From the IMG/VR virus record IMGVR_UViG_3300044846_005435, positions 1 to 49,981 of that record: a DNA stretch of 49,981 bases; one strand, written 5' to 3'. Made by a program: the position numbers and the translations under genes. Positions within the stretch are counted from its first letter, which is position 1. Each line of letters begins with the position of its first letter. The DNA is from a virus. Positions 31,210 through 49,209 of this stretch are shown one piece after another. The notes beneath the pieces are model-generated. The model was not told where the DNA came from and did not search any database. It worked only from the letters and a program-made list of their open reading frames with translations.

Positions 31210-32385
31210 ATGAACCGACTTGATAAACAATACATAGAATTACTTCAATCCATTTTAGATTATGGAGTGGAGAAAAACGACCGCACAGGAACAGGAACCA
31301 AATCAATCTTTGGTTACACAATCCGACATAAAATGTCAGAAGGCTTTCCATTACTTACAACTAAAAAAATGGCTTGGAAAACTATGGTAACCGAATTATT
31401 ATGGTTCTTGCGTGGTGATACAAACATCAAATACCTTGTTGACAATAACTGTCATATTTGGGATGGTGATGCTTACCAAGCCTATATTAAAAGATATAAT
31501 AAAGGTGAATATGTTGGTAAAACCAAATTATTAGAGAATTCTAAGAAAAATAGAACATTAACTGAACCATTTACAATAGAAGAATTCATTGACAAAATCA
31601 AAACCGATGATGAGTTTGCTAATAAGTGGGGTGAACTCGGACCGATCTATGGCAAGCAATGGAGAAGTTGGGGAAAGCATAAGTGGGATAAACTAGATTT
31701 TGAGTTCCGTATAGAATATATTGATCAAATCCAAAATCTAATCAACGAACTTAAAACAAACCCAGACTCAAGACGATTAATGGTTTCAGCTTGGAATGTT
31801 GGAGAATTAGACCAAATGGTTCTCCCTCCTTGTCATTATGGATTTCAAGTTTATACACGTCCAACTACAAGAGATGAAAAGATAGTAAATCCTGGTAAGT
31901 ATAGAGCAATCTCTTTAATGTGGAATCAACGTTCAGTAGATACGTTTTTAGGTTTACCATTCAACATTGCATCTTATGGATTGTTGTTAGAGATAATTGC
32001 TAAAGAAGTTAATATGGTTCCTGATGAATTGATTGGTAACTTAGGTGATGTACATTTATATTCAAACCATATTGAACAAGCAAAAGAACAGATTGGTAGA
32101 AAATATACTTCTGAAGAACGTCACGAAATGTTAAAGACCGCAATGGGTGATTTTTACCAAACTGCAGTTGAAGAACAAGTTCCATTCGGTGGAGGCTTAA
32201 GTGAATACTACAGTGCACATAAAATACCGCACCACACGAGAGAACCTTTTGAGTTACCTAAGTGCAATATCAAATTGCATTTTAAAAACGAACCATCATT
32301 CACGCCAGAACATTGGTTAATTGATGATTTTGAATTAGTCGATTATCAATCACACCCAAATATTAAAGCGACTTTAAGTAATTAA
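31210..32385 (+). CDS. thyA: Thymidylate synthase
   Basis: This 391-residue protein carries the conserved ThyA motifs: GTGTKSIFGYTIRHKMSEGF near residues 30-49, TELLWFLRGDTNIKYL near 64-79, LGPIYGKQWRSW near 143-154 and the catalytic PCHYGFQVY (Cys near 202). It makes dTMP from dUMP with methylene-tetrahydrofolate. The protein is longer than E. coli ThyA (264 residues), with inserts near 90-140 and 290-360 that look like family variation, not an intein. The gene is strongly AT-rich and pairs with a membrane protein four bases downstream. Confidence 0.95.
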   Translation: MNRLDKQYIELLQSILDYGVEKNDRTGTGTKSIFGYTIRHKMSEGFPLLTTKKMAWKTMVTELLWFLRGDTNIKYLVDNNCHIWDGDAYQAYIKRYNKGEYVGKTKLLENSKKNRTLTEPFTIEEFIDKIKTDDEFANKWGELGPIYGKQWRSWGKHKWDKLDFEFRIEYIDQIQNLINELKTNPDSRRLMVSAWNVGELDQMVLPPCHYGFQVYTRPTTRDEKIVNPGKYRAISLMWNQRSVDTFLGLPFNIASYGLLLEIIAKEVNMVPDELIGNLGDVHLYSNHIEQAKEQIGRKYTSEERHEMLKTAMGDFYQTAVEEQVPFGGGLSEYYSAHKIPHHTREPFELPKCNIKLHFKNEPSFTPEHWLIDDFELVDYQSHPNIKATLSN

Positions 32386-44008: not shown

Positions 44009-45616
44009 TTAAAATTCTGGGCACTTCATCTTATTGCCGATATTTCCAATTTTAGGCGCTGAACTGTGGAATCCTCCAAATCTAAGAGTTGGTGGGGTTA
44101 TTGTAATACTTTCGCCTATCCAGTTCATGTATACTTTCCAAGTTCCGCTCGCGGTTGCAGTGGCAGCCGGTGGAAGCTTTTTGTCTGGAGATACAGTAAA
44201 TGTAAGTTCCATAAAAGCAATTGAGAAACGATAAGGGCCGTATGTCTTATTGTATTCCTCTGTTCTGGCGCCAGGCGTTCCGTATTTAGCAGAGTTTGCC
44301 TTGTCCGCATCAGTCCATTCAGGACCTTGATTTGGATTTGCTTTATTACGAGTAGGGTCAATAGCTGGTGCAACAGTAACTCCATTTGCAGTTAGAGCAG
44401 CGGCTAAGGTTTTATTAATTGCAGCTAAACGGTCAGTTGCCAAGGCTGGATTACCAGTACCGGTTGCTGACGTATAATTAGTTCCAACTTTACTTGTACC
44501 TGAATAACCCCAAGTTTTAATACCAGTGATTGTACCACCAGCTGTCTTAACTGCATCAACCGCAGCTTTAACCACTTCATTAAGCTCAGTACTTGCTTGT
44601 GGAGTAACAGTAATACCATTATCTGGAAAAAGGCTTTGGCCTTTCTTCGAGTTTAGGTCATCATCACTCTTTGGAGCACCTGGATAAGAAACTGTGATTG
44701 GCTTTGGAAGTTCAGGAGTTGGAGCCTCAGTAACCGTAACTTTAATCTCTTCTGCTTTTGGTGCAATATAAAGGTCAGCCGCAATTGAGATGGCCTTCAC
44801 CATGTCAACTTCCTTGTGTTTTAGGACGTATGCATCAGCTTTCGCCTGAATTGTATTTAGGATTTCAAGTTTCTGAGCATTGCTTAAGCTTATACCACTT
44901 TTCCAAAAATCATTACTCTTAGCTGGGTCAGCTTGGTAAGCTTTTAGGGTTTGATAAGAAGAGGCTGGGTCCTTTGCAAGTTCAGGGGTACCATAGTATC
45001 CAATTTTCCAAGCCTTTAACATATTAACCAGTTTTGGATTTGGAGTTTCTGATGTGATTCCAGCAATAACGTCAACTTCTTTGCCGTCAATTGAGGTTGT
45101 TCCATCTATTAGATTTAGCGGTAGGATTGCTCCCAACACTTCTCTACGTTTAGGTAAGAAACCTTTTTGCTGGTCTACTTTAAGACCTGCAACCGCAGCC
45201 TTAAGACCTTCGATCTTAGCAGGGTCAACTCCAAGCTTTGCACCATTTGCAATGATTGAGTCAGCTACTTTATAGAAGGTGCCAAGCGTTGTTCCCATTG
45301 TAACATTTGAACTTGAACCTGCCCAGTAGTATGCTGATTTTAGCGAGGCCATTTGGTCAGCTCTGCGTTCAGAACCCTTTTTAAGTAGGCTCTTGAAAAG
45401 ATTAAGGTCAGCACCTCCACGTTTCCACCATTCCATTGTTGTAGCATAGGCTGGATGAGCCTTTACCTCTGGTGAGTCAACTGCCATTGCAGCCTCTATC
45501 AGCTTGGCACGGTCGCCGGCTTTATAAAGAGCATTGACATCAACACCATCAGCCTCAGCAATGAGTAGGTTCTCGTTGAGCCAACTTGCATAAGATTTGA
45601 TAATTGAATTCTTCAT
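44009..45616 (-). CDS. Tagged internal protein with OmpA-like C-terminal domain
   Basis: This 535-residue late protein begins MKNSIIKSYASWLNENLLI with two possible cleavage sites: LNE before Asn16 and, a few residues later, LIAE before Ala. Residues ~20-290 are helical. Residues ~320-470 resemble an OmpA-type peptidoglycan-binding domain (SLFPDNGITVTPQASTELNE, and ATDRLAAINKTLAAALTANG for the NXXL/R region). It would let an injected protein grip the cell wall. The OmpA match is moderate. A TATAAATA late promoter is 24 bases upstream. Confidence 0.75.
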   Translation of the reverse strand: MKNSIIKSYASWLNENLLIAEADGVDVNALYKAGDRAKLIEAAMAVDSPEVKAHPAYATTMEWWKRGGADLNLFKSLLKKGSERRADQMASLKSAYYWAGSSSNVTMGTTLGTFYKVADSIIANGAKLGVDPAKIEGLKAAVAGLKVDQQKGFLPKRREVLGAILPLNLIDGTTSIDGKEVDVIAGITSETPNPKLVNMLKAWKIGYYGTPELAKDPASSYQTLKAYQADPAKSNDFWKSGISLSNAQKLEILNTIQAKADAYVLKHKEVDMVKAISIAADLYIAPKAEEIKVTVTEAPTPELPKPITVSYPGAPKSDDDLNSKKGQSLFPDNGITVTPQASTELNEVVKAAVDAVKTAGGTITGIKTWGYSGTSKVGTNYTSATGTGNPALATDRLAAINKTLAAALTANGVTVAPAIDPTRNKANPNQGPEWTDADKANSAKYGTPGARTEEYNKTYGPYRFSIAFMELTFTVSPDKKLPPAATATASGTWKVYMNWIGESITITPPTLRFGGFHSSAPKIGNIGNKMKCPEF

Positions 45617-45669: not shown

Positions 45670-45993
45670 TTACCAGCGCTCAACGATTAGGGCGTATTCT
45701 AACCAGCCTAGATCGTCGACTGCCTGTTCATACCACCATTCCAGTTTTCGGCTGTATTCTGCGTCTTCTTCAGGCTCTTCCAAATTGAGCCACTTGTCCC
45801 TAAGGGCAACAGTGCGGCTCTTTAGGGTTTCGATTGCAGCCTGGATCCCAGGATCCTCTCCCCATTCCTCAATCATTGAACCCCAACGGTCCTCAAAATC
45901 AAGTTCACCAAGCCCTAGTGCATGCAGTTCCTTGTCATCGTCCGAAACCTCTGTAACGAGCCAGTCCTGAAAGTTACTTGTTTTGTGAGTCAT
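45670..45993 (-). CDS. Tagged small internal protein, LGLG family
   Basis: This 107-residue acidic protein begins MTHKTSNFQDWLVTEVSD with tag site VTE. KELHALGLGELDFEDRWGSM follows directly and shares an ELxxLGLG motif with the proteins at 46433, 47238 and 47700. It is Trp-rich and helical. Late promoter 25 bases upstream. Function unknown. Confidence 0.75.
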   Translation of the reverse strand: MTHKTSNFQDWLVTEVSDDDKELHALGLGELDFEDRWGSMIEEWGEDPGIQAAIETLKSRTVALRDKWLNLEEPEEDAEYSRKLEWWYEQAVDDLGWLEYALIVERW

Positions 45994-46432: not shown

Positions 46433-47011
46433 ATGACAAAGTATGTTAAACTATTCGAGAACTGGAGCGAAGCTGACTCTGAACTTTTTGGGCTTGGACT
46501 TGGCAGCGGGCTTGACCAATGGCTTCAAGAAACCTTGAGTGAGAGACTCAACGGAATCAGTCCAGAAATATACATTGACCCGCTAACGAGCATGAACTCA
46601 GGTTGGCGAACTGTATGGGCCCTAAGGTTACCTAACACCGGGCCAATGACAAAAGGCCGAGATACTGGTGCCTATGTGATTGTTGAGGTTTTCAGTACCA
46701 CAACTCCAGAAAATAGCCAGTACGTCCACAATAAGGTCACTGAGGGTCCAGAGATTAGGGTTTGGGATAGTATTGATGGTTCAGGAGGCTCGCAACACAG
46801 GATCCTTAATTCAGGGGTTAATACCTCAGTGAGTTCAGAGCGGCAGAGGCTTGAGCACGGTACTGGGCCAATTCAGATTCCAGTAGACGAGTGTTCGTCA
46901 GCAGCTGAGGCACTGGACCTTGCAGTTCGGCATGCAACTCTACTTATCCAGACCCTACCACAGCGCAGTGCTCGGCAGCGCGAGATTGCAAGTCAGCAGG
47001 CAGAGGACTAA
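46433..47011 (+). CDS. Tagged internal protein, LGLG family
   Basis: This 192-residue protein begins MTKYVKLFENWSEADSELFG, with tag sites LFE and WSE. The LGLG motif (SELFGLGLGSG) is placed as in its relatives at 45670, 47238 and 47700. The rest is mixed alpha/beta with no enzyme motif. Its base composition is richer in G+C than the left half of the window, matching its neighbours. Converges with the small minus-strand gene by a four-base overlap. Confidence 0.75.
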   Translation: MTKYVKLFENWSEADSELFGLGLGSGLDQWLQETLSERLNGISPEIYIDPLTSMNSGWRTVWALRLPNTGPMTKGRDTGAYVIVEVFSTTTPENSQYVHNKVTEGPEIRVWDSIDGSGGSQHRILNSGVNTSVSSERQRLEHGTGPIQIPVDECSSAAEALDLAVRHATLLIQTLPQRSARQREIASQQAED

Positions 47012-47237: not shown

Positions 47238-47684
47238 CTAAAGTTTGGTAAGGTCAGGTAGAGCCTCGCCCGTCTCCACGAGGTACCACCGGTTGCCGTC
47301 AACAACATGGAGTACTTCAGCACCGTGTTCGCGGGCCTCACTAAAGAGGTAATCCCTAACGAGCCTTTCATTCTCGCGGTGAATCTCGCGGTCTATTGCA
47401 GCGGTTCCATAGGCACTGGTATCAAAACCTTTTACTGCACGTAGTCGGTCAGACCAGCTGTCAAGGTCAATTGGTGGAACAAAAGGCCATGAGTCAAACC
47501 AGTGCCAGTCAATAAATGTGACTGCCGTATCTACCCCAATCTCTAGTCTATCCCAATACACCTTTGCTAAAATTAATTTGATATCTGCAGTACCAAGCCC
47601 AAGCCTGGACATCTCAGTATCCTGGACAATATCCTGTACAGAACGAGACTCGAAGAGCCCATAAGATTTGATATAGTAATTCAT
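47238..47684 (-). CDS. Tagged internal protein, LGLG family (paralog 1)
   Basis: This 148-residue protein begins MNYYIKSYGLFESRSVQDIV with tag site LFE before Ser14. It is a clear paralog of the next upstream gene at 47700: both share IKSYxLFES, DxE(M/L)xxLGL, IKLI and a C-terminal (E/G)TGExLPDLxKL. The start is about five bases from a late TATAAATA element, so the mRNA is probably leaderless. Function unknown. Confidence 0.78.
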   Translation of the reverse strand: MNYYIKSYGLFESRSVQDIVQDTEMSRLGLGTADIKLILAKVYWDRLEIGVDTAVTFIDWHWFDSWPFVPPIDLDSWSDRLRAVKGFDTSAYGTAAIDREIHRENERLVRDYLFSEAREHGAEVLHVVDGNRWYLVETGEALPDLTKL

Positions 47685-47699: not shown

Positions 47700-48143
47700 T
47701 TAGAGCTTGCCTAGATCAGGTAATCTCTCGCCCGTTTCAACCCCATACCACCTTTGATCAAAGTTATCAAATCTGACATGGAGGACAGCTGCCCCGTGCT
47801 GGCGGGCTCGCAAGAACAGATAATCCCAAACAGCCTGTAGGTTTCGGGTATGAGTCTCTGGGTCCGCATCACCATCGGGATCGATCCCAGGTACATTGCG
47901 AACAACATCAACCCATGAATCCCGATTATTGGGTAGTCTAGCGATCAGCGGAAACTCATCTAGCCTCCATTTGATAAAGATCTCTGCACCAGCACCAGGT
48001 GCCAAGTTATCCAATTCTACCCGGGCAGTAATGAGTTTAATCCCAGAATCAAGCAGACCAAGCTTGGCAAGTTCAATATCTGCGATAATCTCTTGAGCTG
48101 ATCCAGACTCAAAGAGCCTATATGATTTAATATATTGGTACAT
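47700..48143 (-). CDS. Tagged internal protein, LGLG family (paralog 2)
   Basis: This 147-residue protein begins MYQYIKSYRLFESGSAQEII with tag site LFE before Ser14. It is a tandem duplicate of the downstream gene at 47238 with considerable divergence in the middle, which argues for an old duplication or one under strong selection. Late promoter three bases before the ATG. No enzyme motif. Confidence 0.78.
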   Translation of the reverse strand: MYQYIKSYRLFESGSAQEIIADIELAKLGLLDSGIKLITARVELDNLAPGAGAEIFIKWRLDEFPLIARLPNNRDSWVDVVRNVPGIDPDGDADPETHTRNLQAVWDYLFLRARQHGAAVLHVRFDNFDQRWYGVETGERLPDLGKL

Positions 48144-48146
48144 GTG

Positions 48147-48158
48147 GTTATTTATATA
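48147..48158 (-). promoter_or_regulatory. Late promoter element, exact T4-type match
   Basis: TATATAAATAAC on the minus strand contains TATAAATA, three bases from the ATG at 48143. Confidence 0.68.
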
Positions 48159-48425
48159 GCCCCTACCCGGGGGAGAATTTGTTCCAGGTAGAGTGCCGAG
48201 CCCGGGGAGAATTTATAAAAAGCTATTAGGTAGACCCCGAAACCTCGAGTAGGCCTAGCCCTGGTCCTGCCTGGCCACATTGGTCCAGAAGGTACCCCCT
48301 GGCCGTGGAGAAACCGGAAAAAAGTAAAGTGCTGCGGCTGCCCTCCCGGAGTACTTTCTTTATGTCAGCAAGGTCACTCTGGGGGCACTCCTGGGGTAGC
48401 CCGGTACCACTACCGGAGTCACCTG

Positions 48426-48441
48426 GGGACCGCTCCGGGAG
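48426..48441 (+). repeat. Direct repeat, copy 1 in GC-rich island
   Basis: GGGACCGCTCCGGGAG recurs at 48461-48476 as GGGACCGCTCCAGGAG, one base different, with a 35-base offset. Confidence 0.85.
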
Positions 48442-48460
48442 TGAGCTGGCCGGCTGTACC

Positions 48461-48476
48461 GGGACCGCTCCAGGAG
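48461..48476 (+). repeat. Direct repeat, copy 2 in GC-rich island
   Basis: GGGACCGCTCCAGGAG is the second copy of the 16-base repeat at 48426-48441. Confidence 0.85.
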
Positions 48477-48619
48477 GCAGCCAGGTCAGGATCCCGGCAG
48501 TACCCGGCCTGCTGCAGCCGGTGTTCGGTTTAGTAGGCCATGGCCGGGCCGGTGGCAAAGCCAGTTAGGTTCCGCCGGGTCTGGCCGGCTTCTAGAGAAA
48601 AAAGCGCTTAATAGCGTTG

Positions 48620-48653
48620 GACGTTGCGGTTTGTCCGGTAGACGTTGCGGTTT
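48620..48653 (+). repeat. Two direct copies of GACGTTGCGGTTT
   Basis: Perfect 13-base copies at 48620-48632 and 48641-48653 have a 21-base period, about two helical turns, so both would face the same side of the DNA. They could be protein-binding sites upstream of the promoter at 48696. Confidence 0.8.
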
Positions 48654-48695
48654 AGCAGGTCTGGACAGGTCTATTAGAACTCTTGACCCAAGCAG

Positions 48696-48703
48696 AGTAT
48701 AAT
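48696..48703 (+). promoter_or_regulatory. Early promoter -10 element
   Basis: AGTATAAT in an A/T-rich patch at the end of the GC-rich island, 28 bases before the ATG at 48732. Confidence 0.5.
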
Positions 48704-48731
48704 AATCTGATCTTAACTAACTTACGGAAAC

Positions 48732-49031
48732 ATGGTATTACAAACTTTAATTCAAGAATTCTTCCGGGTTCTCGAGAGGTCTGGCCGGGACTGGCACCAG
48801 ATCCGATCCGCAATTACCGGCCTCGAAAGGGAAGTCCGAGCAAGCGCGCAGGGTTCGCCTTGGCAGCAGGAGGAAAGGGAATACTTATCCTATCGGGTTT
48901 GTGAGGCCCTGGCTTGGGCAAGAAAGGTGGCTGTAGCTAACGAAGAGTTTGAATGGGCTCATGAAATAACCCTCCGATTACAGGAACTTGGTTGGGAAGA
49001 AGTGGCAAAATTAACTGAAACAGATGTTTAA
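48732..49031 (+). CDS. Small unknown protein
   Basis: This 99-residue helical protein begins MVLQTLIQEFFRVLERSG and has several Trp residues and heptad-like charged helices. It overlaps the next gene by eight bases, which supports this frame over an alternative frame from 48683. Its 5' half still carries the CCGG-rich composition of the island. No family recognised. Confidence 0.65.
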   Translation: MVLQTLIQEFFRVLERSGRDWHQIRSAITGLEREVRASAQGSPWQQEEREYLSYRVCEALAWARKVAVANEEFEWAHEITLRLQELGWEEVAKLTETDV

Positions 49032-49209
49032 AGAAAGAGATATAATAGACCTTGTTCTCGAGAGAGCAGTACAGAAACCCGGTCTAATTGACTGGAGTTG
49101 GATAGATGCAGAATTTGTAAAGCTACACTTAACAGTTGAACGCAAGGTTTTGCATAAAAGGCTAAAGCAGATTCTAGAGAAAAGAGCCAAAGAACCCTGG
49201 TCTAGGTAA
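49024..49209 (+). CDS. Small basic helical protein
   Basis: This 61-residue protein begins MFKERDIIDLVLERAVQK and has a basic helix near the end (HKRLKQILEKRAKE). It overlaps the previous gene by eight bases. Helix-turn-helix-like but too short to prove. Function unknown. Confidence 0.62.
   Translation: MFKERDIIDLVLERAVQKPGLIDWSWIDAEFVKLHLTVERKVLHKRLKQILEKRAKEPWSR

Follow-up and report, generated by a model that had tools for sequence, protein, structure and literature searches.

Architecture of the island locus

The record IMGVR_UViG_3300044846_005435 is a viral sequence of 49,981 bases, classed as linear and with a G+C content of 38%, and its entire length constitutes the window analysed here. 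An intergenic gap of roughly 590 bases (48144..48731, not assigned to a strand) with about 57% G+C separates two outward-facing genes and forms a non-coding island, which lies upstream of the right-hand gene in every relative found to cover this position. The leftward gene (47700..48143, minus strand) is a paralogue of the gene at 47238-47684 (50% identical). The rightward gene (48732..49031, plus strand) encodes a 99-aa protein that is predicted to be all-helical and has no confident family assignment, and it is overlapped by a 61-aa gene (49024..49209, plus strand) with three predicted helices and no confident fold match. Structure prediction gave no informative fold match for either small product, while searches of cultured phages returned only a chance-level match for the 99-aa protein and none for a membrane-protein gene near the island. 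Genes to the right of the island are mostly on the plus strand for tens of kilobases; topoisomerase II genes and two sigma-factor-like genes are among them in a related 271-kb phage.

Several proteins of the window (44009-45616, 45670-45993, 46433-47011, 47238-47684 and 47700-48143) start with a similar leader, and the leaders YIKSYxLFES, YVKLFENW and IIKSYASWLNE resemble the capsid-targeting leaders of T4. Elsewhere in the window, the thymidylate synthase (31210-32385) seems to carry an insert of about 110 aa, because its 391 aa align over only 279 positions of the family profile; a synthase of this insert-bearing type is also present in the 271-kb relative.

The initial annotation had marked 48159-48840 as a CCGG-saturated, G+C-rich stretch. 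The enrichment is real (57% G+C against 38% for the record), but the boundaries are not, since this stretch enters the gene at 48732-49031 and the natural unit is the gap. Its count of 18 CCGG tetramers in 48301-48840 is correct and compares with a mean of 4.2 (sd 1.7, maximum 11) in 1,000 dinucleotide-preserving shuffles of the same segment; 15 of these tetramers fall within the gap and three inside the 99-aa gene. The 60-mer given as 44/60 G+C is indeed G+C-rich, although the richest 60-mer reaches 45/60, at 48422.

The left part of the island contains box A1 (CCCGGGGGAGAATTTGTTCCAGGTA, 48166..48190, plus strand), which is kept in relatives, and a second copy, box A2 (CCCGGGGAGAATTT, 48201..48214, plus strand), together accounting for the duplicated CCCGGGG(G)AGAATTT noted earlier, which lies at 48166 and 48201. 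The direct repeats of 16 bases reported at 48426 and 48461 are present, although they are not exact, being identical at 15 of 16 positions (GGGACCGCTCC[G/A]GGAG). Towards the right end, the 13-base repeat GACGTTGCGGTTT recurs exactly at 48620 and 48641 with the 21-base spacing originally described, as part of two iteron-like 21-nt direct repeats (48615..48656, plus strand), and relatives have GTTGCGRTTT or ACCCCGCCGAAA here, mostly in 20-21-nt steps.

Predicted promoters face outward at both edges, both being consensus matches found by eye and pattern, from which their function, like that of the repeats, is surmised. The T4-late-promoter-like TATAAATA (48149..48156, minus strand) precedes the ATG of the left-hand gene by 5 nt and recurs before the leftward ATG at the island's left edge in most relatives, whereas L016 and L017 have a predicted left-facing promoter of the TATAAT type. 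On the right, the predicted promoter TAGAAC-N17-TATAAT (48675..48703, plus strand) has an AAC-N17-TATA layout that is kept in relatives, all five lineages inspected having it ahead of the rightward gene. Neither a shared inward promoter nor a shared terminator was seen across the islands of the relatives.

Distribution and conservation of the island

Relatives were gathered with a pattern derived from the best-conserved core of the island, then with the downstream protein and finally with a looser core pattern, an initial search with the protein at 46433-47008 having recovered none. In all, 10 distinct island sequences were obtained from relatives in independent metagenomes, with the same genes alongside; these relatives are few and mutually related. 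One source, a 271-kb phage, is represented by four near-complete records, and contigs reached through relatives of the neighbouring gene measure 252,618, 253,137 and about 271,000 bases, placing the island-bearing phages at about 250-271 kb. A single island locus was present in each record searched. Three of these contigs contain a T4-type gp23 major capsid protein. Compared with phage records, one of these three gave its best matches, at 31-38% identity, to the Prevotella Lak phages and to an uncultured phage of 462 kb, on which account a member of the Bacteroidota can be guessed as the host.

Prokaryote genomes yielded five pattern matches of chance-like appearance, and no cultured phage matched the island. 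When the shared NUC endonuclease was used as an anchor, 79 new loci were found, and flanks of up to 9 kb contained the island only in the island-bearing phages already known. As the other phages sharing this endonuclease lack the island in these flanks, it looks to be specific to one lineage.

In pairs from different lineages, no other part of the neighbourhood is as well conserved as the core (CGTGGAGAAACCGGAAAAAAGTAAAGTGCTGCGGC...CTCCNGGAGTACTTT...GTCAGCAAGGTCACTC, 48302..48383, plus strand). Between the window and L002, from another metagenome, 136 bp of the non-coding gap are 84% identical, as against mostly 66-75% in the neighbouring coding sequence, and over 100 bases from GGAAAAAAG onward the window shares 77-82% identity with three other lineages, as opposed to mostly 40-65% in the flanks. 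In close pairs the core is among the best-conserved stretches, not always the single best. The island, with the same genes adjoining, is thus retained in independent metagenomes, as the initial annotation had proposed to check, and the 99-aa gene stands to its right in all relatives. The left-hand gene is different in L009 and in L016/L017, the island being retained. Moreover, L009 and L010 differ in the left flank up to the core and are 89-99% identical for about 700 bases on the right side, so that the island marks an exchange junction as well.

The contigs L004 and L008/L092, which belong to two phages, break off in the core of the island at nearly the same spot (within about 50 bases), perhaps a consequence of co-occurring relatives that have this near-identical stretch in common. 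A second conserved G+C-rich gap lies about 14 kb to the right of the island (L085:1753-2900 and L062:13738-14900, matching a stretch of L049). It contains several copies of TACTCCCTAGTCC, adjoins an IS607-TnpA-like gene with HTH and resolvase domains, and has tRNA genes alongside in two of three genomes. Two tRNA-family matches, at L085:3336-3441 (106 nt) and L062:15054-15179 (126 nt), are longer than a normal tRNA and possibly contain inserts.

A periodic lattice of CCNGG dyads

The abundance of CCGG follows from that of a broader palindromic motif, CCNGG, which occurs 10-18 times per 220 bp in the ten sequences, in comparison with 0-4 for GGNCC, 1-4 for CCNCC and 0-4 for GGNGG. In four relatives, CC(N)GG reaches its highest density in the genome at the island. 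The motifs are arranged as a lattice with a pitch of about 11.4 nt (48345..48508, on neither strand in particular), with unit centres in the window near 48347, 48392, 48402, 48414, 48424, 48437, 48461, 48472, 48483, 48495 and 48505. Relative to the anchor GGAGTACTTT, CCNGG or CCGG is found at offsets of about -1, 33, 45, 54-56, 66-68, 76-78, 89, 100, 112, 124, 136, 147, 158, 169 and 181, not every sequence having all of them.

Nine of the ten sequences have their best period at 11.3-11.5; in L027, where the lattice is weak, it is 11.1. Against random placement with a period scan, each sequence taken singly, the period is clearly significant in L016/L017 (p below 0.0005), the window (0.0005) and L011 (0.0015), while p is 0.03-0.10 in five further sequences and 0.27 in L027; the sequences are homologous and their sites not independent, so that these values cannot be multiplied, and with several group comparisons and period scans tried the single modest ones call for caution. 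When the period is fixed at 11.4, a value picked from the data on which it was tested, the power reaches 12.4-12.7 in L016/L017 and 4-7 in most of the other sequences; at 10.5 it is small. Pairs of the form CCNGG-N6-CCNGG, spaced by 11, are found mainly within the island, which in one 253-kb genome, for example, contains six of the seven. The alignment of L016 with L017 contains 11-nt indels, which fits the gain and loss of whole lattice units. A pitch of 11.4 is nearer to the A-form helical repeat of double-stranded RNA than to that of B-DNA.

Nature of the island

The island does not behave as a gene. The initial annotation had found that no gene fits it well, and this was upheld by the relatives: substitutions are spread evenly over the codon positions (110:87:118), stops occur in some relatives, and indels of 1 and 11 nt are present. 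A protein-coding island was rejected on these grounds, and no reading frame conserved among relatives was found. The high G+C content often leaves frames through the core open, and such long open frames, arising by chance, together with the two contigs that end within the island, are all that speaks for an artefact, foreign DNA or a hidden gene; with the substitution pattern above and the same arrangement of island and genes repeated in independent metagenomes, which excludes both an assembly chimera and recent foreign DNA, an explanation of this kind is extremely improbable. A fixed packaging end, along the lines of the packaging or cutting site suggested earlier, finds no support, in that the distance from the island to the record ends differs among all four near-complete records of the 271-kb phage, although the cutting of circular assemblies could mimic such offsets. 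A methylation-sensitive switch fares no better, as no C5-methyltransferase was found in the phage by a search that detected 10 of 14 controls, although a host enzyme is possible. The readings from the initial annotation that still stand are an origin-like DNA element and a structured RNA.

In our preferred reading, with a probability of about 0.48, the island is a DNA platform of the origin, partition or control type, present in single copy and serving a repeating protein assembly. Under this proposal it would be a cis-acting element of an uncultured T4-like jumbo-phage lineage, in which the CC-N-GG dyad would be recognised by a phage or host protein, and this protein would assemble along a series of roughly 12-17 dyads about 11.4 bp apart. 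The assembly would adjoin the highly conserved core, with the box-A copies and the 20-21-bp repeats on its flanks, and the resulting nucleoprotein platform would form between the two outward promoters. Its anatomy suggests a role in replication initiation, DNA partition or the switching of gene blocks; what is observed is the conservation, synteny, single copy and non-coding nature of the island, its dyad specificity, the spacing of the lattice and the 11-nt indels, and from there binding, assembly, promoter function and role are inferred. No binding protein was identified for the island, and the neighbouring 99-aa protein, for which the structure model was of moderate confidence only, had no match to a DNA-binding fold. 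A genome search found no ParM, in the absence of a working positive control, and the flanking genes examined showed no match to an initiator family, distant homologues of which would escape detection. A skew check, as proposed by the initial annotation, gave no clear origin inflection at the island; gene strand and AT skew do switch there, but each record has 28-48 orientation switches.

The closest competitor, to which we give appreciable weight, is that transcription of the plus strand yields a large structured non-coding RNA of about 500 nt, acting like the big ornate phage RNAs, with the CCNGG units as mutually pairing parts of G+C-rich helices and the core as a functional hairpin. A G+C-rich non-coding island within an A+T-rich genome, a core more conserved across lineages than the genes, and a pitch resembling the helical repeat of double-stranded RNA are all consistent with this. 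Folding of the whole gap in the window gives a z of -3.6 relative to shuffles, and the plus strand folds better than the minus strand in every array tested, a bias explained better by an RNA than by a DNA platform. Consensus-folding z values in the array are -7.9 (plus) against -4.8 (minus), -4.2 against -2.9 and -3.7 against -1.5 in three lineages. However, dense repeated palindromes fold on both strands whatever their role, the lineage of L009, L010 and L011 lacks a consensus-fold signal in the array, and the predicted global folds disagree between relatives without a shared fold, a variability that favours DNA over a fixed RNA architecture. The candidate hairpin H1 (48342..48385, plus strand; arms 48342-48357 and 48370-48385), which pairs the first two CCNGG units, is paired in nearly all sequences (123 of 135 cells of a hand alignment), with 15 G-U cells that suit the plus strand only and one A-U to U-A exchange, but its covariation is not significant, the score being reached in 33 of 500 shuffles. 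The missing inward promoter and terminator also count against an RNA, as does the result with Rfam covariance models (including GOLLD, ROOL and OLE), none of which matched the island at the gathering threshold, weak matches being at chance level. No tRNA or tmRNA was detected in the window or nearby loci. A model of hairpins between neighbouring units throughout the array was not supported, in that neighbour pairing does not exceed expectation and self-dyads do so slightly, and an AAAGTA/TACTTT pseudoknot seen by eye was dropped because its pairing is lost in L010/L011.

A third explanation would reduce the island to an operator or enhancer array that regulates the two divergent promoters, with no part in replication or partition. 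The predicted promoters on both sides, the 20-21-nt repeats adjoining the right-hand one and the downstream sigma-factor-like genes are compatible with it. Nevertheless, the left-hand gene varies in L009 and L016/L017 while the island stays, and a long, near-invariant core with at least twelve sites in about 170 bp goes beyond what is usual for phage operators, so that this is unlikely to be the whole explanation. The DNA platform is ranked somewhat above the structured RNA because of the outward promoters and the regular spacing, and the sigma-factor-like genes about 2.6 and 7 kb to the right are also in its favour.

Comparison with known elements and implications

No described element matches the island. 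Iteron-type origins and ParR/parC-type centromeres are a class of multi-site DNA elements, and the island resembles them in having many short putative protein sites at a spacing of one or two helical turns, near promoters and in single copy. Its 20-21-nt repeats fall within the range of about 17-22 bp for the direct repeats of iteron origins, and the lattice of about 11.4 nt is comparable to the arrays of about 10-12-bp repeats in parC, though with a dyad rather than a longer direct repeat as the unit. It differs from both in this CCNGG unit, in its pitch and G+C-rich setting, and in that no initiator, ParM or ParR gene was recognised in the island phages. Phage pac and cos sites are likewise conserved non-coding sites with repeats, as is the island; however, one phage is represented by records that are permuted with respect to the island, and the capsid gene is far away.

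Among phage RNAs, the most abundant transcript of another phage, ICP1, is an undescribed ncRNA beside the lysis genes (PMC7567579). The island shares with this RNA and with GOLLD, ROOL and OLE (PMC12286853) a long orf-less stretch of comparable size and a small membrane-protein gene nearby. In contrast to them, it has no Rfam match, is not beside tRNAs, has no established conserved fold and contains the periodic CCNGG lattice.

To our knowledge, the start of replication, partition and the control of gene blocks in T4-type jumbo phages are largely unknown outside a few models. A more ambitious view, which we regard as tentative and rather doubtful, is that the island represents a kind of phage element not described before, whose lattice of CCNGG dyads, with an A-form-like pitch of 11.4 nt, would carry a protein filament or a rod-like RNA and provide this T4-like jumbo-phage lineage with its origin, centromere or master control. 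The island is one defined element, present in single copy, that is strongly conserved and clearly regular in physical terms, and therefore tests of binding, replication start and transcription can be directed at a few hundred bases. Should it prove to be an RNA, it would represent a large class of phage RNA missing from Rfam.
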